41,308 bases of DNA, taken from positions 1 through 41,308 of the forward strand of contig JACQWO010000086.1 in the NCBI GenBank assembly GCA_016209225.1, read 5' to 3'. A program made the translations under genes and the position numbers. Below the pieces are notes generated by a model, which was not told where the DNA came from, searched no databases, and saw only the letters and a list, made by a program, of their open reading frames with translations. This document shows, in pieces, positions 5,662 to 38,172 of the stretch (the first letter of the stretch is position 1; every line of letters begins with the position of its first letter). Source of the stretch: Desulfobacterales bacterium. Lineage in GTDB: Bacteria; Desulfobacterota; UBA8473.

Positions 5662-6867
5662 ATGGCATTAAGCACAATCAAAGAGGCAATTGAGGATATA
5701 AAAAAAGGAAAGATAATAATCCTTGTTGATGATGAGGACAGGGAAAATGAAGGAGACTTAATGATAGCAGCGGAGAAGATAACCCCCGATGCTGTCAACT
5801 TTATGGCCAGATATGGAAGAGGGCTTATATGCCTGACATTAAATGAAGAAAGGGCGAAGGAATTACATCTGTCTCCTATGGTGACGGATAACACCTCTCA
5901 TTTTAATACTGCATTTACAGTTTCTATTGAAGCAAGGTGCGGGGTTACTACCGGTATTTCTGCCGCAGATAGGGCTATGACAATCTTAACTGCTATAGAC
6001 GAAAAGACAAAACCTCAGGATCTCGCTCGACCCGGTCATATCTTTCCTATTATCGCAAGAAATGGTGGGGTGCTGGTAAGAACAGGCCAGACAGAGGGTT
6101 CGGTTGATTTGGCCAGACTGTCCGGCTTAATACCGGCTGGTGTGATCTGTGAGATAATGAAAGACGATGGAACTATGGCGAGGATGCCGGATTTAGAGAT
6201 ATTTGCTGAAAAACATGGCTTAAAAATTGTTACAATTGCCGATATAATTGAATATCGATTGCAAAACGAGGGTCTTGTTAGGAGAGTTGCAGAAACGCGT
6301 ATACCTACTCTGTATGGTGGGGAATTCAAGGCTGTTGCATATGAAAATGACGTAGATAATCACCAGCATCTTGCGCTGGTTAAAGGAGATATTAACCCAG
6401 AAGACGAGATTTTGGTAAGGGTTCATTCCGAGTGTTTAACAGGTGATGTCTTTGGCTCCGAGAGGTGTGACTGCGGGGAACAACTCCACACTGCTATGAG
6501 GATGATTGAAGAGGAAGGCAAAGGCGTTATTGTTTATATGCATCAGGAGGGAAGGGGTATTGGGCTGATTAATAAGCTTAGAGCCTATGAGCTTCAGGAT
6601 CAGGGTTTGGATACCGTTCAGGCCAATGAACGGCTTGGCTTTAAACCCGATCTTAGAGATTATGGTGTAGGGGCACAGATCCTTCGTGATTTAGGGGTAA
6701 GAAAGATGAGACAGATGACAAATAACCCTAAAAAGATTAAGGGTATAGAGGGGTATGGGCTGATAGTTACAGAGAGGGTGGCCATTGAGACTAAGCCTAA
6801 TGATAATAACATTAAGTATTTGGAAACAAAGAAGAAGAAAATGGGGCATATATTGAATATAAAATAG
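5662..6867 (+). CDS. ribBA: RibBA: DHBP synthase / GTP cyclohydrolase II
   Basis: Fused enzyme supplying both precursors of lumazine: 3,4-dihydroxy-2-butanone 4-phosphate from ribulose 5-phosphate, and the pyrimidine from GTP. The N-terminal RibB half shows [11 protein letters not shown] near residues 23-33 and RPGHIFPI; the C-terminal RibA half shows the zinc site [19 protein letters not shown] and [12 protein letters not shown]. At 401 residues it is standard for the fusion. AAGGGGGGTCTT precedes the ATG. The TAG stop at 6865-6867 merges with the first G of the repeat element that follows. The last 10-15 residues ([12 protein letters not shown]) are variable in the family. Confidence 0.97.
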
Positions 6868-6988
6868 TAACTATTCAGGCACAAAGAGACAAAGGCACAT
6901 AGGCACAAAGCAGAGCAGGGTCGTTTCGTTGTTTTTTCCTACTTTGTGCCTTTGGCGCTCTGTGCCTTTGTGCCTACCTGAATGGTTA
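6867..6988. repeat. Modular TIR element, GGCACA core
   Basis: Left terminal repeat GTAACTATTCAGG at 6867-6879 and right CCTGAATGGTTA at 6977-6988. The core is an imperfect palindrome built from GGCACAAAG and CTTTGTGCC units around a T-rich centre, so the transcript could fold into a long hairpin. It separates ribBA from ribH within the operon. Confidence 0.85.
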
Positions 6989-7001: not shown

Positions 7002-7472
7002 ATGTCACGGAAGATAATAGAAGGGAAGATAGATGCTCGTGGTTTGAAGTTTGGAATCGTAGTGAGCAGGTTTAATGATTTTATCAGTGAAAAATTGCTT
7101 GCTGGAGCATTGGACGCATTGATTAGATCTGGTGCAGATGAAAATGACATTGAAATAGTAAAGGTTCCTGGTTCATTTGAGATACCTCTGGCTGCAAAAA
7201 AATTGGCTAAATCTCAAAAGTACAATGCTGTTATATGTTTAGGTGCAGTTATCAGGGGTGCTACCCCTCACTTTGAATATATCAGTGCAGAAGTTACCAA
7301 GGGTATTGCCAACGTTTCTTTAGAGTGTGAAATTCCTATATCTCTTGGTGTAATTACTACAGACAATATAGAGCAGGCAATTGAACGGGCAGGTTCGAAG
7401 TCGGGCAATAAAGGGTGGGACGCAGCCATTTCAGCCATAGAGATGGCAAATATTCTTAAAGAGTTAGGGTAA
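7002..7472 (+). CDS. ribH: 6,7-dimethyl-8-ribityllumazine synthase
   Basis: Condenses the RibD product with dihydroxybutanone phosphate, the penultimate step of riboflavin synthesis, in pentameric or icosahedral particles. 156 residues. Motifs seen: [12 protein letters not shown] at the N-terminus, [15 protein letters not shown], and [17 protein letters not shown] with the catalytic His of the TPHFEY block, then [24 protein letters not shown] precedes the ATG by about 6 bases, just outside the repeat element. It completes the pathway in this operon. Confidence 0.97.
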
Positions 7473-7481
7473 ATAAGATTT

Positions 7482-7809
7482 GTAACTGCTCAGGTTCAAA
7501 GTTCCACGGGGTTCAAGGTTAGAGAGCGATGAAGATTGAACGGTTTGAAGATATTGAGGCTTGGCAACTGGCACGTGAATTGGCTCGAAAAGTGTACCGT
7601 CTAACAAAAAAGCCAGGACTTGCAAAGGACTACGGGTTGAAGAGACAGATACAAGATGCTGCCGGATCATCGATGCATAATATTGCCGAAGGTTTCGATT
7701 CCGAGACGAGTGGGGAGTTTATCCGATTCTTGCGATACGCTAAGCGGTCTTGCACGGAAGTCCGGAGCGAACTCTATGTTGCCTTGGACCTGACAACCTG
7801 AGTAGTTAC
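7482..7809. mobile_element. Modular TIR element carrying an S23 gene
   Basis: Left repeat GTAACTGCTCAGG (7482-7494) and right CCTGAGTAGTTAC (7797-7809) enclose a 328-base element. After the left repeat comes GTTCAAAGTTCC..GGTTCAAGG sequence shared with other copies (14739 onward, 16650 onward), then a four-helix-bundle S23 gene whose stop codon lies inside the right repeat. It splits ribH from nusB. This is the only copy in the window with an open reading frame and may be closest to an autonomous form; no transposase is present. Confidence 0.75.
7529..7801 (+). CDS. Four-helix-bundle S23/IVP-family protein, C-truncated
   Basis: A 90-residue protein of the 23S rRNA intervening-sequence (S23, TIGR02436-like) four-helix-bundle family. 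Motifs: FEDIEAWQLARELARKVYRLT at residues 5-25, DYGLKRQIQDAAGSSMHNIAEGF near 35-57, EFIRFLRYAKRSCTEVRSEL near 65-84. Relatives are usually about 115-125 residues and continue with a fourth helix. Here the frame runs into the element's right terminal repeat at ALDLTT and stops at TGA (7799-7801), so the last helix is missing. The family is small and pentameric in solved structures, occurs in rRNA intervening sequences, and is related to Avd of diversity-generating retroelements; its function is unknown. No strong ribosome site is visible. Confidence 0.85.
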   Translation: MKIERFEDIEAWQLARELARKVYRLTKKPGLAKDYGLKRQIQDAAGSSMHNIAEGFDSETSGEFIRFLRYAKRSCTEVRSELYVALDLTT

Positions 7810-7820
7810 CCGAGGGTTTA

Positions 7821-8234
7821 ATGGGAAACAGGCGTAAATCCAGAGAGTTAGCCCTCCAAATTCTCTATCAGATTGATGCAAGCCGTGATAATGTCAGGGA
7901 TGCTTTAGACCTTTTCTGGCAGAATTTTAAAGGTTTGGGAATGTCCACGGAGTTCACTGAAAAATTGGTAGAGGGTGTCTGTAACCATAAGGAGGAAATT
8001 GACAGGCTTATTGAGGAATCCTCGGAAAATTGGAGACTAAAGAGGATGTCCAAAGTAGACAGGAGTATATTAAGGCTAGCGAGCTTTGAACTCTTATACT
8101 GCAATGATGTTCCAGCCAAGGTTACTCTGAATGAAGCCATAGATTTGGGAAAAAAATTCGGTTCAGAAAAGTCAGGTTCATTTATAAATGGCATATTAGA
8201 TAGAATATCAGCAGGTATTGGTAAAGATTGCTGA
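7821..8234 (+). CDS. nusB: Transcription antitermination factor NusB
   Basis: A 137-residue all-helical RNA-binding protein which, with NusE (S10), binds boxA and promotes antitermination on rRNA operons. The N-terminus NRRKSRELALQILYQID and the C-terminal block KVDRSILRLASFELLYCND, then KVTLNEAIDLGKKFG and SGSFINGILDRI, are diagnostic. Placement right after ribH is widespread in bacteria. Here the S23-bearing repeat element is inserted between the two, and the ribosome site (CGAGGG) begins only 2-3 bases after that element. Confidence 0.96.
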   Translation: MGNRRKSRELALQILYQIDASRDNVRDALDLFWQNFKGLGMSTEFTEKLVEGVCNHKEEIDRLIEESSENWRLKRMSKVDRSILRLASFELLYCNDVPAKVTLNEAIDLGKKFGSEKSGSFINGILDRISAGIGKDC

Positions 8235-8492: not shown

Positions 8493-8536
8493 TGTGAACT
8501 AATTCAAAACATGATGGACTCATAAAAAGTCTTAAT

Positions 8537-8695
8537 TTCGTCACACCGGCGAAAGCCGGAGTCCAGACGTCGTCCCCCGTATCGAGTACAGGGCAGGTTC
8601 TGCAAAAGCAGGGAACTATTCAAGGGAAATGGATTCCGCATCAAGTGCGGAATGACATCATTTGCTGGATTCCTGCTTACGCCGGAATGACAAAA
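8537..8695. repeat. REP-like palindromic repeats (CCGGCGAAAGCCGG type)
   Basis: ACACCGGCGAAAGCCGGAGTCCAG at its left end and GGATTCCTGCTTACGCCGGAATGAC-type sequence at its right end are the two halves of the common GTCATTCCGGCGAAAGCCGGAATCC extragenic repeat. A related unit, GGATTCCGCATCAAGTGCGG, lies between them near 8632. Such repeats are widespread in proteobacterial genomes and are usually non-coding. Confidence 0.75.
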
Positions 8696-8713
8696 AAATA
8701 GGAATTTTTCAAC

Positions 8714-11436: not shown

Positions 11437-12456
11437 ATGTCTTGGAAAAAGTTGGGTTTTGCGTTTTTGATTTTATTCTTTGTATGTGGCACATTAATTA
11501 CTGTGGGTCAGCAGCCGGCAATGGCTAAAGAGATGAAACTTATTATTGCAAGCTACATAACACCCAGTTATAAGGACCTATTTACCCCTACAAAGATATT
11601 TGCTGATTATATTAATGAACACGGAAAGGGCAAAGTGCGCCTCGAGTATTTTCATTCGGGAACGCTGCTCAAGGCGGAAGAGTTGTTGCCAGGATTGATG
11701 CAGGGGACAGCAGACATGATCTTTCATACAGACTCTTACATAATGGGTACGCTCCCCATTCTTGGCATTATAGAACTCCCTTTTCTATACGAAAGCATGG
11801 AAGATGCCTCCAAAAAGTTGAGGATAGGGTCGCCTCTGTATGAACTCATTAATCAGGAGCTGGCCAAGAAGAATCTCTTTATGGTGGCTACGCTGCCTGC
11901 AATCTCGCAGTATATATGGACAAAGGATAAGCCTGTAAGAAAACCTGAGGACTTAAAAGGGCTCAGGATAAGAACCGCAGGGCGTGTAGAGGCAATGGTG
12001 ATCAAGGCTCTGGGTGGGGCGTCTACTACTATCCCTACGGCAGAACTCTATGAGGCGCTCCAGAGGGGAACGGTTGATGGTGCCTTGTGTTATTGGGGAA
12101 CCATTCCGGCACGGGGTCTCCAAGAAGTATTGAAATATTACACCAAAGGTTATTTTGCAGCATACACTGAGGAGATTTATATGCCGCTCGATAAATGGAA
12201 GGGTCTGCCACCTGACATTCGTAAACTAATGATAGAATCTGCGAAGCTCTATGAGAAACAGATCTTTGAATATGCAGTACCTGTTTGGGACAAAGAAACG
12301 TGGCCGGTAATAAAGAAAGCCGGTTTGAAAGAGACTGAGCTTACCCGGGAAGAAAGAGCAAAATTCAGGGAAATGGTAAAGCCTGTATGGGATTGGTGGA
12401 AAGATCAGCTGCCTCCGGGGGTTGGTGAAAAGGCTATAAAGCTGGCAACTGAGTAG
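11437..12456 (+). CDS. dctP: TRAP transporter substrate-binding protein DctP (copy 1)
   Basis: A 339-residue periplasmic receptor of a TRAP transporter, which captures an organic acid and hands it to the DctQM membrane unit. Signal peptide: MSWKKLGFAFLILFFVCG with cleavage near PAMAKE. Family core: LPGLMQGTADMIFH, DKPVRKPEDLKGLRIR (carrying the carboxylate-binding Arg), then TAELYEALQRGTVDGAL. AAAAAGGAGA precedes the ATG. It is the most divergent of three tandem copies: its ligand-wall segments (ASYITPSYKDLF, CYWGTIPARGLQE) differ from copies 2 and 3, so its ligand may differ. Just upstream, GGAGG at 11344 serves a three-codon frame ATG-ACT-TAG (11357-11365), which may be a leftover start. 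Confidence 0.93.
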   Translation: MSWKKLGFAFLILFFVCGTLITVGQQPAMAKEMKLIIASYITPSYKDLFTPTKIFADYINEHGKGKVRLEYFHSGTLLKAEELLPGLMQGTADMIFHTDSYIMGTLPILGIIELPFLYESMEDASKKLRIGSPLYELINQELAKKNLFMVATLPAISQYIWTKDKPVRKPEDLKGLRIRTAGRVEAMVIKALGGASTTIPTAELYEALQRGTVDGALCYWGTIPARGLQEVLKYYTKGYFAAYTEEIYMPLDKWKGLPPDIRKLMIESAKLYEKQIFEYAVPVWDKETWPVIKKAGLKETELTREERAKFREMVKPVWDWWKDQLPPGVGEKAIKLATE

Positions 12457-12556
12457 TTCAGCCTAACAGCCTGTAGGCTATTAGGCTGTAGACTGTTAGG
12501 AGGCTATTAAGCTACTACAGTCTAATAGTCTACAGTCTAACAGGCTAACTAATTAC
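12452..12556. repeat. CAGCCTA-type repeat between dctP copies 1 and 2
   Basis: Begins at the dctP stop (GAGTAGTTCAGCC) and ends with GGCTAACTAATTAC. The core contains repeated AGCCTGTAGGCTATTAGGCTGTAG and its inverse AGTCTAATAGTCTACAG, so it can fold. The terminal sequences are a degenerate form of the window's terminal repeats. It is almost identical to the copy at 13588-13690. Confidence 0.75.
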
Positions 12557-12576
12557 AAAAAAAGGAGGTACCAAAA

Positions 12577-13590
12577 ATGAAAAAGATAGGTTTTGTTTTA
12601 TTGGTTTTACTATTTATTTGCAGCACGTTAATTACCATGGGTCAGCAGCCTGCAATGGCTAAGGAGCTAAAACTCATTTTTGCCCACTATATCCCGCCGG
12701 CATATAAGGATCTCTTTCCTCCTATACAAGGATTCCCTGATTATATCAACGAGCATGGAAAGGGTAAGGTACATATTGAACATTTTCACTCGGGAACCCT
12801 GCTAAAGTCAGAAGAGTTGATACCAGGTCTGATGCAGGGAACAGCAGATATTATCCTTCAGCTGGATTCCGCCATAATGGGTACCTATCCCATACTGGGA
12901 ATAACCGAACTCCCGCTCTTATATCCAGACGTGGGAACATCTCATGAAAAGCTGAAGATAGGTTCACCCCTGTATCAACTCATAAATCAGGAGTTGGCGA
13001 AAAAAGATATTATTGCAGTTGGCACCTGGCCGGTTCTCTTTCAATACATATGGACAAAGGATAAACCTGTGAGGAAACCTGAAGACTTAAAGGGGCTGAG
13101 GATAAGGGTTGCAGGGCGTGTAGAAGCAGCGGTGATCAAGGCTCTCGGTGGAGCAGCTACAACTACCTCTTCGGCAGAACTCTATGAGGCGCTCCAGAGG
13201 GGAACTGTTGATGGTGTTATGTGTACTGAGACAACCATTATATCACGGAGTCTTCAGGATGTAGTAAAATATGTGACGAAACCCCCTTTGGGGGCATACA
13301 GTGGGCAGATTTATATGCGACGGGATAAATGGGAGAGTTTGTCTCCTGACATCCAGAAGCTGTTTATAGAATCAGGGAAGAACTCTGCAAAAGGGTTCCT
13401 TGAGTATTCAGTGCCATTCTGGAATACGAAAATCTGGCCAACGATAAGGAAAGCCGGTGTGAAGGAGATTGCGCTTACAAAGGAAGAGCAACAGGAATTT
13501 AAGAAGAGAGTCGAACCCGTATGGGATTGGTGGAAGGGCTTATTGCCTCCCGGGGTTGGTGAAAAGGCTATAAAGCTGGCTACTGAGTAG
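12577..13590 (+). CDS. dctP: TRAP transporter substrate-binding protein DctP (copy 2)
   Basis: A 337-residue TRAP receptor with the same signal peptide as copy 3 (MKKIGFVLLVLLFICSTL) and the family core KGLRIRVAGRVEAAVIKALGG, followed by SSAELYEALQRGTVDGVM. It differs from copy 3 mainly in the region lining the cleft (HYIPPAYKDLF, VGTWPVLFQYIWTK, CTETTIISRSLQDV), while the first 30 and last 45 residues are nearly identical. That suggests duplication followed by divergence of ligand contacts, or gene conversion of the ends. AAAAGGAGGT precedes the ATG. It shares DctQ and DctM with the other two copies. Confidence 0.93.
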   Translation: MKKIGFVLLVLLFICSTLITMGQQPAMAKELKLIFAHYIPPAYKDLFPPIQGFPDYINEHGKGKVHIEHFHSGTLLKSEELIPGLMQGTADIILQLDSAIMGTYPILGITELPLLYPDVGTSHEKLKIGSPLYQLINQELAKKDIIAVGTWPVLFQYIWTKDKPVRKPEDLKGLRIRVAGRVEAAVIKALGGAATTTSSAELYEALQRGTVDGVMCTETTIISRSLQDVVKYVTKPPLGAYSGQIYMRRDKWESLSPDIQKLFIESGKNSAKGFLEYSVPFWNTKIWPTIRKAGVKEIALTKEEQQEFKKRVEPVWDWWKGLLPPGVGEKAIKLATE

Positions 13591-13690
13591 TCCAGCCTAA
13601 CAGCCTGTAGGCTATTAGGCTGTAGACTGTTAGGAGGCTATTAAGCTACTACAGTCTAATAGTCTACAGTGTAACAGGCTAACTAATTAC
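13588..13690. repeat. CAGCCTA-type repeat between dctP copies 2 and 3
   Basis: Near-identical duplicate of 12452-12556, beginning at the stop codon of the second dctP and ending GGCTAACTAATTAC. The spacer and its repeat were evidently duplicated together with the gene. Confidence 0.75.
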
Positions 13691-13710
13691 AAAAAAAGGA
13701 GGTACCAAAA

Positions 13711-14724
13711 ATGAAAAAGATAGGTTTTGTGTTATTGGTTTTACTATTTATTTGCAGCACGTTAATTACCATGGGTCAGCAGCCTGCAATGGCTAAGGAG
13801 TTAAAACTCATTTATGCCCACTACTTACCACCCTCTTATAAGGATCTCTTCCCCGTTATACAGGGATTTGCTGATTATGTTAACGAGCATGGAAAGGGCA
13901 AGGTGCATCTTGAGCATTTTCACTCAGGAACGCTGCTCAAGTCAGAAGAGTTGATACCGGGTCTGATGCAGGGAACAGCAGATATTATCCTTCATGTTGA
14001 TTCCGCCATTATGGGTACCTATCCCATATTGGGAATTACAGAACTCCCATTCCTATATAAAGACATGGAGGTGTCATATGAAAAGCTGAAAATAGGTTCT
14101 CCTCTTTATAAACTCATCAATCAGGAACTGGCCAAAAAGGATATTATTGCAATAGCCACCTGGCCGATTCTTCCTGAATATATATGGACTAAGGATAAAC
14201 CTATCAGAAAACCCGATGACTTGAAGGGGCTCCGGATAAGGGTTGCAGGGCGTGTGGAAGCAGCGGTGATCAAGGCTCTCGGTGGAGCAGCTACAACTAC
14301 CTCTTCAGCAGAACTCTATGAGGCGCTCAAGAGGGGGACGGTTGACGGTGCCATGTGTACATGGACAACCATTACATCAAGAAGTCTCCAGGACACGGTA
14401 GGATACGTTACCAAAGCCTCTTTTGCCTCCTATAGTGCGCAGATTTATATGCGTCTGGACAAGTGGCAGAGTTTGTCCCCTGATATCCAGAAGCTGTTTA
14501 TAGAGGCAGGGAAGGGCTATGGAAAAGGGGTATTTGAACATGCAGTGCCATATTGGGACAAGGAAACCTGGCCACTGATAAGGAAAGCCGGTGTGAAGGA
14601 GATTGCGCTTACAAAGGAAGAGCAACAGGAATTTAAGAAGAGAGTCGAACCCGTATGGGATTGGTGGAAGGGCTTATTGCCTCCGGGGGTTGGTGAAAAG
14701 GCTATAAAGCTGGCTACTGAGTAG
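13711..14724 (+). CDS. dctP: TRAP transporter substrate-binding protein DctP (copy 3)
   Basis: A 337-residue TRAP receptor, the copy nearest to dctQM. Signal peptide and C-terminus (TKEEQQEFKKRVEPVWDWWKG) are almost identical to copy 2. The core includes LIPGLMQGTADIILHVD, KPIRKPDDLKGLRIRVAG and SSAELYEALKRGTVDGAM. Its cleft residues (HYLPPSYKDLF, CTWTTITSRSLQD) are closer to copy 1 in some places and to copy 2 in others. AAAAGGAGGT precedes the ATG, in the same duplicated spacer as copy 2. The TAG stop (14722-14724) lies in a left repeat arm (GTAGTTCAGG). Confidence 0.93.
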   Translation: MKKIGFVLLVLLFICSTLITMGQQPAMAKELKLIYAHYLPPSYKDLFPVIQGFADYVNEHGKGKVHLEHFHSGTLLKSEELIPGLMQGTADIILHVDSAIMGTYPILGITELPFLYKDMEVSYEKLKIGSPLYKLINQELAKKDIIAIATWPILPEYIWTKDKPIRKPDDLKGLRIRVAGRVEAAVIKALGGAATTTSSAELYEALKRGTVDGAMCTWTTITSRSLQDTVGYVTKASFASYSAQIYMRLDKWQSLSPDIQKLFIEAGKGYGKGVFEHAVPYWDKETWPLIRKAGVKEIALTKEEQQEFKKRVEPVWDWWKGLLPPGVGEKAIKLATE

Positions 14725-14822
14725 TTCAGGTGGAGAACATTTCTCAGGTTCAAAGTTCCAGGGTTCACGGTTCAAGGTTAGAGCAACCAACCGTGAACTG
14801 TGAACCCGACAACCTGAGTACT
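14721..14822. repeat. Modular TIR element, GGTTCAAAG core
   Basis: The left arm GTAGTTCAGG overlaps the dctP stop; a second CTCAGGTTC follows at 14743. The core has GTTCAAAGTTCCAGGGTTCACGGTTCAAGG and the inverse ACCGTGAACTGTGAACCC, ending CAACCTGAGTACTGC, a right terminal repeat with a damaged last part. It sits between dctP copy 3 and dctQ. Confidence 0.75.
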
Positions 14823-16644: not shown

Positions 16645-16649
16645 GACAA

Positions 16650-16855
16650 GGTTCAAAGTTCAAGGGTTCACGGTTCAAGGTTAGAGAGCGATGAAGATTG
16701 AACGGTTTGAAGATATCGAGGCTTGGCAACTGGCACGTGAATTGACTCGAAACGTGTACCGTCTAACAAAGAAGCCAACCGTGAGCCTTGAACCTTGAAC
16801 CGTGAACCGTGAACCGTGAACCTTGAACCGTGAACCCTAAACCCTGGAACTTTGG
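16650..16855. repeat. Decayed TIR element with S23 remnant and ACCGTGA array
   Basis: Starts with GGTTCAAAGTTCAAGGGTTCACGGTTCAAGG, as in the 7482 and 14739 elements, and continues into a truncated S23 gene. It then runs into ACCGTGA/ACCTTGA heptamers (about seven units, 16777-16846) and CCCTGGAACTTTG. In related copies the sequence goes on AACCTGAGTAGTTAC; here it changes to GAGGAAGAG, which forms the ribosome site of the mutase gene. Confidence 0.8.
16691..16777 (+). pseudogene. Truncated S23 four-helix-bundle gene fragment
   Basis: The first 29 codons (MKIERFEDIEAWQLAREL, then TRNVYRLTKKP) match the S23 gene at 7529-7615 with only about four base differences over 87. The sequence then switches abruptly to heptamer repeats. 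The frame has no continuation of helix 2, so it is a fossil of the same element type. Confidence 0.85.
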
Positions 16856-16864
16856 AGGAAGAGA

Positions 16865-18535
16865 TTGTTTAAAGAAGAGGTGTTGAAAGAGATTGAGCAA
16901 TTGAATAAGGAATATGAAGCCAATGTCAAAAGAGTATTGAAAAAATTTTCAACAGAAGAGAAAGAGGTTAAAACCCTTTCAGGCCTATCCTTAAAACCGA
17001 TTTACACTCCCCTTGATATTAAAGACAATAACTATGTTGAAGATATTTCTTCCCCTGGTTTGTATCCCTTTACCAGAGGGGTTACTCCAACAGGTTATAG
17101 GACAAAAGAATGGACTATAAGACAGGTAGTAGGATTGGGGACTGCTGAGGAGACCAACGAGAGGCTGAAATATCTGTTTAAACAAGGGCAGACCGGATTC
17201 AGTGTCTGCGGAATGGGCTACCAGCCCTATGAGTCCAGTGATGAACGGAGTTTTGGTATTCTGGGAAAGGGCGGGGTATGGATTGATACCCTGGCAGACA
17301 TTGAAACCCTGTTTGACGGGATAGATATGTCTAAGATAAGTATCAACCAGATTGGCTTTTCCATACCTGTCTTTGCCATGATTCTGGCAGAAGCCGAAAG
17401 GCAGGGTGTAGATTTTAAGAATCTGTCTGGAACTATTCAAAACTGCGTTTTCCCCTTTGGTGAAGGTCCTCAAATGAGGGGGAATGGATCGGTGGATATC
17501 AGTGAGTATTGCACAAAGAATCTGCCGCGATGGAACCATGCCAGTATCTCTGTGAGGAATATCCGGGATGAAGGCATATCTGCCCCTCAGGAAATTGCCT
17601 TTGGAGTTTACATGGGAAGTTTTACTCTGCAATCCGTAATGGCAAGGAACATAGATGTTGATGAAGTTGCCCCCAGGATTTCCTTCTTTCTCAGCTCTGA
17701 GAATGACTTCCTGGAGGAGGTAGCCAAATTCCGCGCAATGCGCAGGTTGTGGGCAAGGACAGTTAAAGAAAGGTTCAATGCCAGGGATCCCAGATCATGG
17801 CTTATGCGATTCCATACCCAGACCACAGCAATTAACCTGACAGCCCAGCAGCCCCTTAATAACGTAATCCGTTCTACCATCCACGCCCTTGCCGCTGTGC
17901 TGGGGGGCGCTCAGTCAATGTCTGTAAACTCCTTTGACGAGGCATTAGCCATACCAACCAGGGCTTCAGCTACCTTATCACTGCGTACCCAACAGATAAT
18001 TGGCCATGAAAGCGGTGTAGCAAACGTTATCGATCCTTTAGGGGGTTCATATTGCATAGAGTCTCTTACCAATCAACTTGAACAAAAGGCAGTAGAGACA
18101 CTGAAAGAATTAGAGGATATGCAGCCTCAGAAGGCCTATCAGTATATTGTTGATCAGGGCAAAGAGGCCGGATATCTCAGGCAAAAGGCCATAGACAATA
18201 ACGAAAGGGCTATGGTGGGTGTTAACAGATTTATTGTGAGAGAGGGTGAAGAGGGAATTGATCTCGGCAATACGGACATTCTGGGATACGATCCTGTCTG
18301 GAGAGACAAACAGATAGAAAGGCTCAATAGAGTTAAGAAGAAAAGAGACCCTGGAAAAACAGAGAAAGCTAAGAGGCTGCTGGAAGATGCGTACAGAAAT
18401 AGAATAAATATAATAGAACCTATGATAGAGGCTGTTAAGGCATATCTGAGCATCGGAGAGATTGTTGAGATAAGAGAAAAGGTTTATGGCCCGGCAAATC
18501 TAGGCCATGTGTGGGGATGTTACTTCGGTATGTAA
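16865..18535 (+). CDS. Divergent acyl-CoA mutase large subunit (set 1)
   Basis: A 556-residue relative of the methylmalonyl-CoA mutase large chain (B12-dependent carbon-skeleton rearrangement). The TIM barrel retains YPFTRGVTPTGYRTKEWTIRQ near 67-87, SGTIQN near 188-193, EVAPRISFF near 267-275, LSLRTQQIIGHESG and PLGGSYCIE. It lacks residues considered essential in the family. GYH (Tyr243-His244 of the Propionibacterium enzyme) reads VRN at 230-232. The substrate-carboxylate loop with Arg207 and YPP is shortened to a Gly-rich stretch at 199-208. The LATHRGYDSD segment is replaced. TTG start with GGAGG 6 bases upstream; its TAA stop begins a repeat element. Its partner is the B12 subunit at 18645. 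An altered substrate or a non-mutase role is likely. Confidence 0.85.
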   Translation: MFKEEVLKEIEQLNKEYEANVKRVLKKFSTEEKEVKTLSGLSLKPIYTPLDIKDNNYVEDISSPGLYPFTRGVTPTGYRTKEWTIRQVVGLGTAEETNERLKYLFKQGQTGFSVCGMGYQPYESSDERSFGILGKGGVWIDTLADIETLFDGIDMSKISINQIGFSIPVFAMILAEAERQGVDFKNLSGTIQNCVFPFGEGPQMRGNGSVDISEYCTKNLPRWNHASISVRNIRDEGISAPQEIAFGVYMGSFTLQSVMARNIDVDEVAPRISFFLSSENDFLEEVAKFRAMRRLWARTVKERFNARDPRSWLMRFHTQTTAINLTAQQPLNNVIRSTIHALAAVLGGAQSMSVNSFDEALAIPTRASATLSLRTQQIIGHESGVANVIDPLGGSYCIESLTNQLEQKAVETLKELEDMQPQKAYQYIVDQGKEAGYLRQKAIDNNERAMVGVNRFIVREGEEGIDLGNTDILGYDPVWRDKQIERLNRVKKKRDPGKTEKAKRLLEDAYRNRINIIEPMIEAVKAYLSIGEIVEIREKVYGPANLGHVWGCYFGM

Positions 18536-18644: not shown

Positions 18645-19067
18645 TTGGAGAGTAATAAAAAGATCAGAGTGTTGCTGGTTTCTGACAGTCCGGGGCATGC
18701 TACCGGTTACTATGTAGTGGGAAAGGGGTTGAGGGAGGCAGGTATAGAGGTAATACTGGGGGGGTTCCAGATTCCCCCTCAGATAGTGAAATCTGCCGTT
18801 CAGGAAGATGTGGACTTCATAGGCTACCGAATTATGGATGGTGCTCCTGAAATTCTTGTGCCGAGATTGGTAGAGTTGCTCAAGGAGAGATCAATCCGGG
18901 ATATCCAGATCATTGTTGGCGGGATCATCCCCCCACCAATTGTACCCACATTGAAAGGGATTGGAATAGAAGGGATATTCACTCCTGGAACAAAGATTTC
19001 AGATATAGTGGACTATGTTAGAGGCTCTGTAACACCTCAGGTAGATAGACTGAAGTTTAGGCTATAG
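18645..19067 (+). CDS. B12-binding mutase small subunit (set 1, atypical)
   Basis: A 140-residue Rossmann-type cobalamin-binding domain, the small subunit of a split acyl-CoA mutase. The His that coordinates cobalt appears kept (PGHATG at 16-21), but the Asp of the DxHxxG motif is Pro here. The SxL motif that contacts the nucleotide tail is YRI at 61-63. The GG motif (IIVGGIIPP near 89-97) is retained. TTG start with GGAGGTGG upstream. The last 12 residues (TPQVDRLKFRL and the preceding Val) are translated from the repeat element starting at 19029, so the natural C-terminus was replaced. It pairs with the equally altered large subunit just upstream. Confidence 0.85.
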   Translation: MESNKKIRVLLVSDSPGHATGYYVVGKGLREAGIEVILGGFQIPPQIVKSAVQEDVDFIGYRIMDGAPEILVPRLVELLKERSIRDIQIIVGGIIPPPIVPTLKGIGIEGIFTPGTKISDIVDYVRGSVTPQVDRLKFRL

Positions 19068-19175
19068 ACTATTAGCCTGTAAACTATTAGCCTACTTCAG
19101 CCTTCAGCCCTGGCCAGGACCTGCGGTTTAGCAGGGCAGGCCTTCGGTCTTCAGCCTAAACACCCGAGCAGTTAC
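19029..19175. repeat. Modular TIR element overlapping a gene 3' end
   Basis: Left GTAACACCTCAGG (19029-19041) and right CCCGAGCAGTTAC (19163-19175). The core is the CAGCCTA type, as at 18532, with an extra GC-rich insert GGCCAGGACCTGCGG around 19110-19125. It overlaps the last 39 bases of the B12-subunit gene, whose TAG stop lies in the core. Confidence 0.85.
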
Positions 19176-22794: not shown

Positions 22795-22884
22795 ATAACT
22801 ATTCACGTTGTCAGGTTCACAGTTCACGGTTGGTTGCCCTAACCTTGAACCCTGAACCCTGGAACTTTGAACCTGGGTAGTTAC
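22795..22884. repeat. Modular TIR element, GTTCACGG core
   Basis: Left ATAACTATTCACG and right CCTGGGTAGTTAC (22872-22884). Core TTGTCAGGTTCACAGTTCACGG, then CCTTGAACCCTGAACCC and GGAACTTTGAA. It is nearly the same as the element at 31979-32068, although it precedes a different gene. Confidence 0.85.
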
Positions 22885-28225: not shown

Positions 28226-28672
28226 ATGAACTCATTGAAAGAAATTGAGGTAAATACCGCGAGGGATGCACTGGCATTGTTAAGCCGTATGATTTATAAA
28301 AAGTATGGTGATGAAGTTCTGCCTCTTATAGGGGAGGTGTGCCGCAGGTTGGGAAGAGCTATTGGAAACCAGATGAGAACAAATTTGGATTCCTTTGACC
28401 TCAAGAGTGTTGGCAACGCCTTTTTCGAAGGCGCCAGACGGCGTAAGAGTTCTGTAACAATCCTCGAAGCCACAGAAAAAAAGTTTAGGGGCAAGAATGA
28501 ACGGTGCGCACTGGGGTTGGCCGGTGCCGGTCGTCCGTTATGTGAGGCCATGATGAATATGGATAAGGGTATATTCGAGGCGGCTACAGGGGAGGAAATT
28601 GAGCTCTCTATCGTGAAGACAGTAGCTGCCGGCGATGAATGCTGTGATGTAATGTTTGCTTTAAAGGGCTAG
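28226..28672 (+). CDS. V4R- or ATC-hydrolase-like small cysteine protein
   Basis: A 148-residue soluble protein. Its C-terminal half has the layout of V4R / L-2-amino-thiazoline-4-carboxylate-hydrolase-like domains: RCALGLAGAGRPLCEAM, then GIFEAATGEEI, then AAGDECCDVMFAL, with Cys at about 94, 107, 139 and 140. In relatives these cysteines bind zinc or a small ligand. GGGGGGAT precedes the ATG. It lies after the set 2 mutase genes, preceded by a 100-base gap. Function unknown; a ligand-sensing or chaperone role in the island is conceivable. Its TAG stop forms the first base of the next repeat. Confidence 0.6.
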   Translation: MNSLKEIEVNTARDALALLSRMIYKKYGDEVLPLIGEVCRRLGRAIGNQMRTNLDSFDLKSVGNAFFEGARRRKSSVTILEATEKKFRGKNERCALGLAGAGRPLCEAMMNMDKGIFEAATGEEIELSIVKTVAAGDECCDVMFALKG

Positions 28673-28814
28673 TAACTATTCAGGTAGGCACAAAGGCACA
28701 GAGCACCAAAGGCACAAATTTTTCTAGCCTATTAGCCTATAGGCTACAGGCTACAGGCTAATAGCCTGTTCTTTGTGCCTATGTGCCTTTGCCACTTTGT
28801 GCCTGAGTAGTTAC
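28672..28814. repeat. Modular TIR element, GGCACA core with nested CAGCCTA hairpin
   Basis: Left GTAACTATTCAGG (28672-28684) and right CCTGAGTAGTTAC (28802-28814). GGCACAAAGGCACAGAGCACC and its inverse flank an inner hairpin, AGCCTATTAGCCTATAGGCT and ACAGGCTAATAGCCTGT (28725-28769). One module is thus inserted inside another. Confidence 0.9.
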
Positions 28815-29778: not shown

Positions 29779-29780
29779 GA

Positions 29781-29916
29781 GTGACTAATCAGGTAGGCAC
29801 AGAGACACAGAGCACCAAAGGCACAGATTTTTCTAGCCTATAGGCTACAGGCTACAGGCTATTAGCCTGTTCTTTGTGCCTATGTGCCTTTGCCACTTTG
29901 TGCCTGAGTAAGTTAC
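29781..29916. repeat. Modular TIR element, GGCACA core with nested hairpin
   Basis: Left GTGACTAATCAGG (29781-29793) and right CCTGAGTAAGTTAC (29903-29916), both slightly changed. The core closely matches the element at 28672, including the nested AGCCTATAGGCTACAGG hairpin (29833-29870), so the two are recent copies. Confidence 0.85.
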
Positions 29917-31967: not shown

Positions 31968-31978
31968 GCTCTTTAGCA

Positions 31979-32068
31979 GTAACTATTCAGGTTGTCAGGT
32001 TCACAGTTCACGGTTGGTTGTTCTAACCTTGAACCGTGAACCCTGGAACTTTGAACCTGAGTAGTTAC
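31979..32068. repeat. Modular TIR element, GTTCACGG core
   Basis: A 90-base copy with perfect ends GTAACTATTCAGG (31979-31991) and CCTGAGTAGTTAC (32056-32068). Core TTGTCAGGTTCACAGTTCACGG and the inverse CCGTGAACCC, as in the 22795 copy. Confidence 0.9.
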
Positions 32069-32101
32069 CTTTAGCAATGGATAAAAAGAGGAATATCATA
32101 G

Positions 32102-34578: not shown

Positions 34579-36315
34579 ATGGATAATAAAGATAAATTGG
34601 CTGAGATAAAAGAGAAGAAGAAGGAATGGGAGGAGAAGGTGTTGTTGCCTGCGGCCAAGAGGTTTGGGATAGAGAAAAAGCCGACAGAATTTCATACGCC
34701 TTTAGATATAGCGGATTTTGACTTTGTGCGGGATGTTGGATTCCCTGGTCAGTACCCATTCACGACAGCAACCTATCCTGTAAGCCTTGTTCCCAGCATA
34801 GAGAGGGGTGCAAAGCCAGGAGGATTGAGAAGAGCAGGGACATATTCCGGGTATGGAACCCCGGAAGATACCAGGGACTACTATAAGCAGATGGCGAAAT
34901 TGAGCTGGACGGGAGGCCCAAACTTAGCACTCGACCTTCCCACTCAATGCGGTTATGATTCAGACAATGAGATGGTTGAAGGAGAGATAGGTAAGGTGGG
35001 TGTGGCAATAGATACCCTGAGGGATTTTGAGGTCATCTTTGAGGCGTTTACAGGCGATCAGGATGTCGACAGGATTGCCACAAACATCACTATCAATGCC
35101 GCTGCAAATATCCTGGTTGCCATGTACATAGCCCTTGCTGAAAAGAGGGGTATACCTATGGCAAAACTGAGGTGTACCCCCCAGAATGACATATTAAAAG
35201 AGTTTGTTTCCCGCGGCACCTACATATTTCCTCCGAGACCTTCTATGCGGATGTTTCGAGACAGCGTGGTCTTCTTTACAGAGAACCTCCCCGGAATAAA
35301 TATAACGAGTATTGGCGGGTATCATATCCGTGAAGGGGGGTCTACAAGAGAGCAGGAGCTGGCCTTCAGTATGGCCATAGGGATTGCCTATTTGCAGGAG
35401 GGTGTAAATGCAGGGGTTGATATTGATGCCTTTACCCCCAAGTTTACCTTCAACGCGTTTGGGGGAAGTATGCAGTTTTTCAAGGAGATCGCCTTTCAAA
35501 GGGCAGCTCGCCGGATGTGGGCAAAGATTCTTAAGGAGAGGTTTGGTGCGAAGAAAAAGGACAGTATGAGGATCAGATGTCCTATCACCGCCCATGTCGG
35601 TTGCAGCAGCACTACCAAACAACGGGCGTTGAACAACCTTTCCCGTTCTGTAGTGGGTGCCATTGCAGGTGTTCTTTCAGGAGGGCCACCTTATGCCTTC
35701 CCGCCGTATGATGAACCGTTGGGGTTGGGTTGGAGCCTGGAGGCAAGACAGCTTGCCGAGGATGCAACAAGGATTATCATGTATGAGACAGGGATGTGCG
35801 ATGTTATAGACCCCCTTGCCGGGTCTTACTATGTGGAGTCGTTGACCAACGAGATAGAGGACGCTGCATGGAAGGAAATAGAAAAGGTCGAGAGTATGGG
35901 TGGTGCGGTTACTGCCATAGAGAACGGGTATATGCAGCGTGAGGTTGCAAAGAGTGCTGCCGAACGTCAGGCCAGGATAGAGAGAAGAGAAGAGCTTGTT
36001 GTTGGGGTTAATTGTTTCACAGAGGAATATGAGTTGGATGTAACCACCAGCAAGATCATTGAGCATCCGTATTCTGAAGAGAAAAGGTATGATGCCGAGA
36101 AACAGCAGAAGGCTAACCTTGCTGAAGTCAAGCGTACAAGGAACAACAGGGAGGTAACGAGGCTTCTTGGAGAATTGGAGAGTGCTGCGAAAAAGGAAGA
36201 TAAGAACCTGATGCCCCTTTTTATTGATCTGGCAAGGGAATATGCGACTCTTCAAGAACAGTGCGATGTTTTGAGAGGTGTGTTTGGTGAATGGCAGTTG
36301 GATACGTTTGTCTAA
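34579..36315 (+). CDS. Acyl-CoA mutase large subunit (set 3, copy A)
   Basis: A 578-residue mutase-type catalytic chain of a divergent subclade. PTQCGYDSDNEMVEG near 121-135, QNDILKEFVSRGTYIFPPRPSMR near 202-224 (Arg212, the equivalent of substrate-binding Arg207) and GGYHIREGG at 246-254 (Tyr248-His249) are kept. The YPFTRG/WTIRQ region is replaced by YPFTTATYPVSL..GAKPGGLRRAGTYSG, and the substrate Arg of APR is Lys (TPKF, 286-289). The barrel's RTHCQTSGWSLT stretch is RCPITAHVGCSS. AAGGAGGT precedes the ATG. Copy B follows 23 bases later with near-identical ends. Confidence 0.9.
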   Translation: MDNKDKLAEIKEKKKEWEEKVLLPAAKRFGIEKKPTEFHTPLDIADFDFVRDVGFPGQYPFTTATYPVSLVPSIERGAKPGGLRRAGTYSGYGTPEDTRDYYKQMAKLSWTGGPNLALDLPTQCGYDSDNEMVEGEIGKVGVAIDTLRDFEVIFEAFTGDQDVDRIATNITINAAANILVAMYIALAEKRGIPMAKLRCTPQNDILKEFVSRGTYIFPPRPSMRMFRDSVVFFTENLPGINITSIGGYHIREGGSTREQELAFSMAIGIAYLQEGVNAGVDIDAFTPKFTFNAFGGSMQFFKEIAFQRAARRMWAKILKERFGAKKKDSMRIRCPITAHVGCSSTTKQRALNNLSRSVVGAIAGVLSGGPPYAFPPYDEPLGLGWSLEARQLAEDATRIIMYETGMCDVIDPLAGSYYVESLTNEIEDAAWKEIEKVESMGGAVTAIENGYMQREVAKSAAERQARIERREELVVGVNCFTEEYELDVTTSKIIEHPYSEEKRYDAEKQQKANLAEVKRTRNNREVTRLLGELESAAKKEDKNLMPLFIDLAREYATLQEQCDVLRGVFGEWQLDTFV

Positions 36316-36338
36316 GATGAGACAGGGGGAGATTTATC

Positions 36339-38075
36339 ATGGATAATAAAGATAAATTGGCTGAGATAAAAGAGAAGAAGAAAGAATGGAATGAGAAGGT
36401 GTTGTTGCCTGCGGCCAAGAGGTTTGGGATAGAGAAAAGGCCGACAAAATTCCATACGCCTTTAGATATAGCGGATTTTGACTTTGAACGGGATGTTGGT
36501 TTCCCAGGGCAATATCCATTTACCCCATCATCTTATCCAATAAGTCTTGTGCCTCGGATTGAAAAGGGTGCAAAGCCAGGAGGATTGAGAAGGGCAGGAA
36601 CATATTCCGGATATGGGACCCCGGAAAACACCAGGGATTACTACAAATTAATGGCGAAATTAAGGTATACGGGCGGTCCAAACCTGGCGTTAGATCTTCC
36701 TACCCAGTGTGGCTATGATTCGGACAATGAGATGGTTGAAGGAGGGATAGGTAAGGTGGGTGTGGCAGTAGACACCTTCAGGGATGTTGAGGTTATATTT
36801 GAGGCGTTTACAGGTGATCAGGATCTGGACAAGATCGCTACAAACATGACGATAAATGCCCCTGCAAATATCCTGGTTGCAATGTATATTGTTCTTGCAG
36901 AAAAGAGGGGTATATCACTGGCAAAGTTGAAGGGCACCCCACAGAATGACATACTAAAGGAGTTCATTTCCCGTGGCACATACATATTTCCTCCGAAACC
37001 TTCCATGCGGATGTTTCGAGACAGTGTGGTTTTCTTTACAGAGAATCTTCCAGCGTTGAATATTAATGGCTTTGGCGGTGCTCATATCCGTGAGGGAGGG
37101 GCCACAAGAGAGCAGGAACTGGCTTTTACTATGGCTAATGGGATCGCTTATCTGCAGGAAGGTATTAATGCAGGGCTCGATATTGATGCCTTTGCTCCCA
37201 GGTTTTCGTTTGTGGGATTTGGTGGAAGTATGGAGTTTTTCAAAGAGATCGCTTTCCACAGGGCGTCTCGCTGCATGTGGGCTAAAATTACCAAGGAAAG
37301 GTTTGGCGCAAAAAGTCCTGAAAGCATGAGGATCCGAAGCCCATACACAGCCTCTAGCGGTATCAGCGCCACCACCAAACAACGGGCGCTGAACAACCTT
37401 ACCCGCTCAGTCATAGGCGCAGTAGCCGGTGTTCTTTCGGGAGGAGCGCCAATGGCCTTCCCGCCGTACGATGAGCCGCTGGGGTTGGGCTGGAGTTTGG
37501 AAGCAAGGCAGCTTGCCGAGGATGCAACAAGGATTCTTATGTATGAGACAGGGATGTGCGATGTTATAGACCCTCTGGCCGGGTCTTACTATATGGAGTC
37601 ATTGACCAATGAGATAGAGGACGCAGCATGGAAAGAACTGGAGAAAGTCGAAGGAATGGGTGGCTCTGTGGCTGCTATTGAGAATGGGTATATGCAACGC
37701 TCGATTGCAAAGAGTGCTGCCGAACGTCAGTCCAGGATAGAGAAAAGAGAAGATCTTATAGTTGGAGTGAATTGTTTCACAGAGGAATATGAGTTGGATG
37801 TAACCACCAGCAAGATCATTGAGCATCCGTATTCTGAAGATAAGAGGTATGATGCCGAGAAACAGCAGAAGGCTACCCTTGCTGAAGTCAAACGCACAAG
37901 GAACAACAGGGAGGTAACGAGGCTTCTTGGAGAATTGGAAAGCGCTGCGAAAAAGGAAGATAAGAACCTGATGCCCCTTTTTATTGATCTGGCAAGGGAA
38001 TATGCGACCCTTCAAGAACAGTGTGATGTCTTGAGAGGCGTATTTGGTGAGTGGCAGATGGATTCGTTTGTTTAG
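36339..38075 (+). CDS. Acyl-CoA mutase large subunit (set 3, copy B)
   Basis: A 578-residue tandem paralogue of copy A, the same length and nearly identical over the first 50 and last 120 residues but clearly different in the barrel. The catalytic Tyr of GYH is Ala (GGAHIREGG, Ala248-His249), while the substrate Arg is kept (FAPRFSF, Arg288), the reverse of copy A. Arg212 (SRGTYIFPPKPSMR) is present. RSPYTASSGISATTK replaces the corresponding copy A stretch. This fits either a heteromeric enzyme in which one chain is less active, as in Propionibacterium MutA/MutB, or two enzymes with separate substrates. GGGGGAG precedes the ATG. Confidence 0.9.
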   Translation: MDNKDKLAEIKEKKKEWNEKVLLPAAKRFGIEKRPTKFHTPLDIADFDFERDVGFPGQYPFTPSSYPISLVPRIEKGAKPGGLRRAGTYSGYGTPENTRDYYKLMAKLRYTGGPNLALDLPTQCGYDSDNEMVEGGIGKVGVAVDTFRDVEVIFEAFTGDQDLDKIATNMTINAPANILVAMYIVLAEKRGISLAKLKGTPQNDILKEFISRGTYIFPPKPSMRMFRDSVVFFTENLPALNINGFGGAHIREGGATREQELAFTMANGIAYLQEGINAGLDIDAFAPRFSFVGFGGSMEFFKEIAFHRASRCMWAKITKERFGAKSPESMRIRSPYTASSGISATTKQRALNNLTRSVIGAVAGVLSGGAPMAFPPYDEPLGLGWSLEARQLAEDATRILMYETGMCDVIDPLAGSYYMESLTNEIEDAAWKELEKVEGMGGSVAAIENGYMQRSIAKSAAERQSRIEKREDLIVGVNCFTEEYELDVTTSKIIEHPYSEDKRYDAEKQQKATLAEVKRTRNNREVTRLLGELESAAKKEDKNLMPLFIDLAREYATLQEQCDVLRGVFGEWQMDSFV

Positions 38076-38082
38076 AATAATG

Positions 38083-38172
38083 GTAACTATTTTTGTAGCT
38101 ATTCAGGTGGATAGACTGTAGGCTGTAGCCTAACAGCCTTCAGCCTACAGCCTAAACAACCTGAGTAGTTAC
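38083..38172. repeat. Modular TIR element, CAGCCTA core
   Basis: The left end GTAACTAT is followed by a short insertion and GCTATTCAGG (to 38106); the right end CCTGAGTAGTTAC (38160-38172) is perfect. The core TAGACTGTAGGCTGTAGCC, then AACAGCCTTCAGCCTACAG, is of the same class as those at 18532 and 19029. Confidence 0.85.

Follow-up and report, generated by a model that had tools for sequence, protein, structure and literature searches.

S23 genes between inverted heptad arrays as probable cargo of non-autonomous IS66-type and ISL3-type elements

The window analyzed here is the whole stretch of 41,308 nucleotides of contig JACQWO010000086.1, which belongs to the 3.1-Mb genome of a Desulfobacterales bacterium (G000). 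The gap between the genes ribH (7002–7472) and nusB (7821–8234), which are located on the same strand, is occupied by an element of 328 bp. The element is bounded by inverted 13-mers and contains an open reading frame (ORF) matching the S23/IVP family (PF05635; 84.5 bits, cut-off 33.8) over profile positions 1–82 of 106. The TGA stop codon of this ORF (7799–7801) is located within the right 13-mer. For the 128-aa full-length homologue L227, modelling gave a four-helix bundle (pLDDT 95.6) with helices at residues 10–25, 35–56, 61–87 and 93–126. In the alignment with L227, the homology of the window protein stops at residue 87 and the ORF ends before the helix 93–126, so the absence of the C-terminus is real, and the window protein is not a complete four-helix bundle. 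The initial annotation had described the locus as an S23 gene packaged between terminal repeats, with the last helix cut off and the stop codon supplied by the right repeat, and all of this was confirmed. It had also named this copy the only one with an ORF. This is true within the window, but not genome-wide: locus L005 of G000 (C37:22794–23265) contains a full-length S23 gene of another lineage between exact 13-mers, and locus L008 (C54) contains a 5′-deleted S23 gene with slightly degraded ends.

Apart from the fourth helix, the window element has lost its right array. The bases flanking it match at one of eight positions, i.e., no target duplication is visible, and the copy is probably dead. 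It lies between ribH and nusB and not inside a 23S rRNA gene, and no Rfam match was found in the window.

The window contains a number of other hairpin elements of three array classes (Table 1). The remnant at 16649–16854 shares 106 nt with the window stretch 7510–7615 at 96% identity. The target duplication of the element at 38095–38172 was read separately, the left end having failed the filter used for the 59 paired elements described below. Another inverted repeat family (CCGGCGAAAGCCGGAGTCCAG ... TGGATTCCTGCTTACGCCGGAATGAC) is present at 8530–8700, downstream of nusB. Two groups of similar protein-coding genes were also observed. Three tandem ORFs of 339, 337 and 337 aa with a spacing of 1134 bp are located at 11437–14724; the first encodes a DctP-type solute-binding protein, and the other two are about 70–78% alike in DNA. 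Two adjoining methylmalonyl-CoA mutase genes of 578 aa each, with 87% DNA similarity in the part compared, are located at 34579–38075, and a third mutase gene at 16865–18535.

Table 1. Coordinates of the S23 element, its parts and the other hairpin elements of the window.
Feature	Position	Strand	Remarks
S23-carrying element, probably non-autonomous IS66-type (class B)	7482–7809	+	328 bp
Left terminal inverted repeat, 13-mer GTAACTGCTCAGG	7482–7494	+	Ends of the same kind as in IS66 element L367
Left array, GGTTCAA-type heptads	7493–7522	+	Period-7 signal near S23 genes
S23/IVP ORF, 90 aa, without fourth helix	7529–7801	+	
Right terminal inverted repeat, CCTGAGTAGTTAC on the + strand	7797–7809	-	
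Class-C element (AGGCACAA arrays), without S23	6867–6988	+	Gap from ribA/ribB to ribH
Class-B array hairpin	14743–14820	+	Ends degraded
Class-B remnant: array, first ~34 S23 codons, inverted heptad array	16649–16854	+	Without 13-mers
Class-A element (AGGCTGA-type arrays)	19029–19175	+	Near-identical left end at 18532
Class-B 90-bp element, without S23	22795–22884	+	
Class-C element	28672–28814	+	Class-A-like repeats centrally
Class-C element, near copy of 28672–28814	29780–29910	+	Ends approximate
Class-B 90-bp element	31979–32068	+	Perfect 8-bp target duplication CTTTAGCA (31971–31978, 32069–32076)
Class-A element	38095–38172	+	Perfect 8-bp target duplication CTATTTTT

The 13-mer, with one mismatch allowed, occurs at 317 sites of the 3.1-Mb genome, compared with 14 sites for the reversed control. 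A set of 59 distinct inverted 13-mer pairs, from 42 to 472 bp, was collected from the retrieved stretches; both ends had to start with GTAAC, with a maximum of two mismatches in total and with 20-base flanks. The 13-mer elements insert with 8-bp target duplications. A perfect duplication of this length was found in 23 of the 59 elements (control mean 0.42 with flanks swapped between elements), and duplications of 9–12 bp were found in none.

An IS66-family transposon has these 13-mers as its terminal repeats. Element L367 of Candidatus Desulfaltia (genome G039) is 3333 bp long and has the exact 13-mer at each end, within terminal repeats that extend to 17 bp (GTAACTATTCAGGGGTA). It encodes an IS66 transposase (PF03050, E = 1.5e-31), a DruA-domain protein and a third ORF; its flanks match at one of eight bases, i.e., there is no target duplication. 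The ends of L367, together with the 8-bp duplications, identify the small 13-mer family as non-autonomous IS66-type elements. The transposon with which the ends are shared thus comes from G039 and not from G000. The only PF03050 gene in G000 (L219) has ends in which 2 of the 13 bases deviate from the 13-mer, and no PF03050 match was found in the 13-mer-rich relatives G001 and G003; hence, no motor was found in the genus of the window. The available portion of PMC3281130 lists two IS66 elements with 8-bp duplications and gives a size near 2.8 kb; the S23 elements share this duplication length, but they lack a transposase and retain nothing beyond the terminal 13 bp. In L367, the DruA (Druantia) domain gene (PF14236, L367:897–1769) adjoins the IS66-type transposase gene. 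In genome G040 (Desulfobulbaceae; L377, L380), the exact 13-mer occurs 88 times, often with a spacing of about 44 bases on the same strand. The interiors of the two elements inspected there harbor neither heptad arrays nor S23, so the 13-mer family exists without S23 too.

A full-length element of the window type was found in Candidatus Desulfaltia (L227/L368, G039). Its two ends are exact 13-mers, its target duplication matches at 7 of 8 bases, and GGTTCAC heptad arrays flank the gene for an S23 protein of 128 aa on either side. This protein is 87% identical to that of L168, and the window protein clusters with it in a tree of 108 proteins (support 96/84). Three S23 lineages are enclosed by the same 13-mers in the genus and family of the window, each with its own repeat type: lineage A (AGGCTGA; L005, L008 and L123, with the left end shown by L111), lineage B (GGTTCAA; the window copy and L227 from Desulfaltia) and lineage C (AGGCACAA; L120 and L137, as well as L135, which leaves its contig and has only the left end visible). 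At least two separate origins among these 13-mer-borne lineages are required by the tree.

Recognizable S23 coding sequence, derived from lineages A, B and C, is present in 14 of the 59 paired elements. Five elements with an S23 fragment only (L190, L191, L198, L043 and L024) possess duplications matching at 8 of 8 bases and must therefore have transposed when S23 was already disrupted. Some of the small hairpin elements are shown to be internal deletion products of S23-carrying parents, and as these derivatives were still mobile, the motor acts in trans. The earlier proposal of S23 as the factor that acts on the terminal repeats is not supported: the ends belong to an IS66-type transposon, and copies with a broken S23 gene or without one still show perfect target duplications. 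The presence of three lineages in the same 13-mers and of the intact parent L227/L368 indicates that the S23 gene is part of the element rather than captured by chance. The initial annotation had regarded S23 genes without terminal repeats as a sign of such a capture. Most other S23 genes do lack the 13-mer, but they have inverted heptad arrays of their own, and some are enclosed by ends from another insertion sequence, so this does not imply a capture by chance. The presence of S23 is patchy between sister species, with 0 to 14 matches per genome and matches in 28 of 39 genomes, and the copies are often decayed. None of five 23S rRNA motifs was found at any of 144 S23 loci (0/144), and the interpretation of these loci as rRNA insertions was rejected on this basis.

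A second type of insertion sequence ends was found around S23 genes of another lineage. At loci L002, L004 and L153, these genes lie between GGTTCATCTCCCAA-like and GGTTCTTCTCCCAATTAGTTGG ends; L004 has one internal stop, and L153 is one codon short of the end of the profile match. The protein of L002 scores 34.3 bits with the bAvd profile PF22296, under the cut-off of 40. End pairs of the GGTTCATCTCCCAA/GGTTCTTCTCCCAATTAGTTGG type bound 14 distinct elements, eight of which have a perfect 8-bp duplication, and an ISL3 transposase (PF01610) is encoded in two, L391 (G017) and L392 (G003, duplication 8/8). L002 (G000) and L326 (G003) share the same flanks, and the G003 copy is without S23, with a length of 159 bp instead of 489 bp. 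The occurrence of S23 within both IS66-type and ISL3-type ends means that S23 units ride derivatives of two unrelated transposon families. At locus L310 (G007), two ISL3-type ends form a palindrome of 31 bp that has an 8-bp target duplication and is possibly the smallest mobile hairpin of the family.

In general, S23 genes sit between inverted arrays of approximately 7-nt repeats. In the phylum of the window, 52 of 71 loci were used (10 were omitted as weak or partial matches, and the rest for short or N-containing flanks). Comparison of each upstream flank with the reverse-complemented downstream flank of the same locus gave a median score of 18, versus 8 for flanks of different loci, and 44 of the 52 loci were above the 95th percentile of the cross-locus controls. 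The fraction of base matches at lag 7 in this set was 0.338 near S23 (0.273 expected) and 0.257 at 400–630 bases away from it (0.266 expected). Named loci from many phyla (74 of 80 used) gave the same medians of 18 and 8, with 46 of the 74 above the 95th percentile and with prominent lags 7 and 8. Insertion sequence ends were not recognized at most S23 loci, though the arrays are present.

Different loci have different repeat sequences in their arrays, and these track the similarity of S23 only at identities higher than about 55–60%; the 5-mer similarity of the arrays is 0.50 above 80% identity and at background below 55%. The assumption that the heptad type is a recognition code for each S23 was rejected, with background similarity below 55% and descent alone being able to explain the trend. 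A search for duplications beside the inverted ends covered 144 of 151 S23 loci, with seven left out. Exact 8-bp duplications were found at 4 loci (0.1 expected) and those with one mismatch at 16 (3.4 expected), but other lengths were raised too (e.g., 8 exact duplications of 6 bp versus 2.1), so that this heterogeneous set alone is no proof of 8-bp transposition.

The histories of several sites were compared in related genomes. The element between ribH and nusB is absent in the sister genome G001, in line with mobility at this site, and the gene order is different in G004. In G003, this gap contains a different element with the 8-bp duplication GAAAGATA (read by eye), which apparently contains the tail of an S23 gene from a further lineage. 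Site L001 contains an S23 unit with TCGTAAA arrays in G000 and G003, in opposite orientations; the divergence between the two genomes is 4.07% in S23 and 4.03% in the flank (1.6-kb upstream side only). In G001, G002 and G004, this site has only a small palindrome, TCGTAAGTACGA, of one or two array units. Its presence in both the outgroup G004 and G002 suggests that the palindrome may be ancestral, and the site fits an insertion into the palindrome with subsequent inversion, the branching of G000, G001 and G003 not being settled. The breakpoints between L001 (G000) and L113 (G003) are located in the inverted arrays, as in a naturally invertible S23 unit. At site L114, the arrays persist in relatives that lack S23, and the start region of S23 is still present in G000; the S23-less sites look like deletion scars. 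At site L115, G000 has an unrelated filler with its own hairpin, and at site L121 the gap was not cleanly placed by global alignment.

The dN/dS values of S23 range from 0.05 to 0.19 in unsaturated pairs of two lineage-B groups, including pairs from different phyla; a close lineage-A pair with few changes gave 0.31. As judged from the coding sequences, the S23 protein is shown to be under purifying selection while passing between phyla. The intact protein matches PDB 2gsc (E = 2.9e-10). The predicted fold of the intact element RNA is better than those of 100 of 100 shuffled sequences (z = −6.6), and that of the window copy is weaker (z = −2.5, with 3 of 100 shuffles as good).

The S23 gene is known so far mainly from rRNA insertions. 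In the available part of PMC4990558, published intervening sequences replace tetraloops of 23S helices, and that of Coxiella carries the heptamer GACAGAT, in two or three sets depending on the strain, directly upstream of the S23 ORF. The 23S intervening sequences, e.g., of Coxiella burnetii, share with the elements described here an S23 ORF of about 120 codons and complementary stem-forming borders, and the tandem heptamers are similar to the arrays. In contrast to what that text describes, our units have arrays on both sides of the gene, are intergenic and located outside rRNA, and possess IS66-type or ISL3-type ends with 8-bp target duplications (PMC4990558). Bacterial MITEs, as presented in the accessible text of a review (PMC10969869), are likewise short, with insertion sequence-type terminal inverted repeats, target duplications and movement in trans, but the elements here additionally contain heptad arrays and a gene for a conserved protein, which is under selection; S23, IS66 and ISL3 are unmentioned in the searched text of that review. 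The BrickBuilt MITE of Porphyromonas gingivalis also has a tandem repeat array inside a mini-element, but with a 23-nt unit and a single array, and no S23 or four-helix terms were found in the part of the paper searched (PMC4596501). The Foldback/Galileo transposons of Drosophila, according to the portion of PMC3573991 consulted, differ in being eukaryotic, in their transposase and in lacking S23. No link of S23 genes to MITEs, IS66, ISL3 or inverted heptad arrays was found in the titles and abstract openings of the open-licence literature. RAYT/REP (BIME) hairpins were considered as well and were set aside after the 8-bp duplications and the IS66 ends appeared.

We consider it probable (roughly 80%) that the element between ribH and nusB is a non-autonomous transposon of the IS66 type, now decayed, the cargo of which is S23 between inverted arrays of ~7-nt repeats, and that transposases of unrelated insertion sequences are used by such elements in trans. 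S23 with its inverted arrays is shown to be a recurrent unit, present in ISL3-type ends as well. The best-supported explanation is that these units are cargo of non-autonomous transposons moved by IS66-type or ISL3-type transposases in trans, with S23 kept by selection. An IS66-type or ISL3-type transposase would act in trans on the S23-array elements, and an oligomer of S23 may bind the array hairpin, either as DNA or as a transcript. The bound protein could aid the element by protecting or folding the hairpin, or by recruiting or tuning the transposase. A unit of this kind placed in the helices of ribosomal RNA would be the classical intervening sequence. Binding of array hairpins is the most likely function inferred for S23.

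A more tentative alternative is that the S23-array unit is itself a mobile element inserting at the tips of palindromes, whether these are mini-elements, small DNA palindromes or ribosomal RNA hairpins; insertion sequence ends would then be one kind of target, and the arrays would grow from the target arms. The central position of S23 between the bare terminal repeats of two unrelated insertion sequences is consistent with this, as are the small palindrome at L001 in the genomes without S23, while G000 and G003 have S23, and the replacement of 23S tetraloops by intervening sequences in the available text of PMC4990558. However, the S23-less arrays and the S23 start region in G000 at L114 look like deletion scars, and with the branching of G000, G001 and G003 not settled, loss in G001 is possible. 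Also against palindrome-tip insertion, no enzyme that performs it is known. It is likewise conceivable, though less likely than not, that S23 units form a separate class of mobile elements colonizing palindromes, with the rRNA intervening sequences as a minor branch and the S23 oligomer as the needed hairpin-binding factor.

Being the sole gene in its elements and conserved by selection, S23 might be thought to be the mobilizing protein itself, the insertion sequence-like ends being coincidental. This is highly improbable: the same ends flank IS66 and ISL3 transposase genes, respectively, copies without S23 have transposed, and the modelled four-helix bundle is not known to have a catalytic site. 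It is also unlikely, if to a lesser degree, that S23 is a regulator or RNA-processing gene useful to the host, which was by chance picked up and spread by mini-elements. The low dN/dS across phyla would suit such a role, and so would the location of the window element in the gap of an operon, where processing of the transcript could be determined by a stable stem, but the patchy presence between sister species (28 of 39 genomes with any S23), the decay of many copies and the lack of S23 in G000 at sites where G003 has it argue against a host function.

These data suggest that S23 genes, as an entire family, are mobile passengers. The role and movement of S23 proteins and of rRNA intervening sequences have been a question for decades. 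S23 is found here in transposed units with defined ends and target duplications, for which intact parents, derivatives formed by deletion and two candidate motors are known, so that both its function and its mobility become testable. The intergenic gaps of these genomes are filled with inverted heptad hairpins, which would be the footprints of S23 elements.
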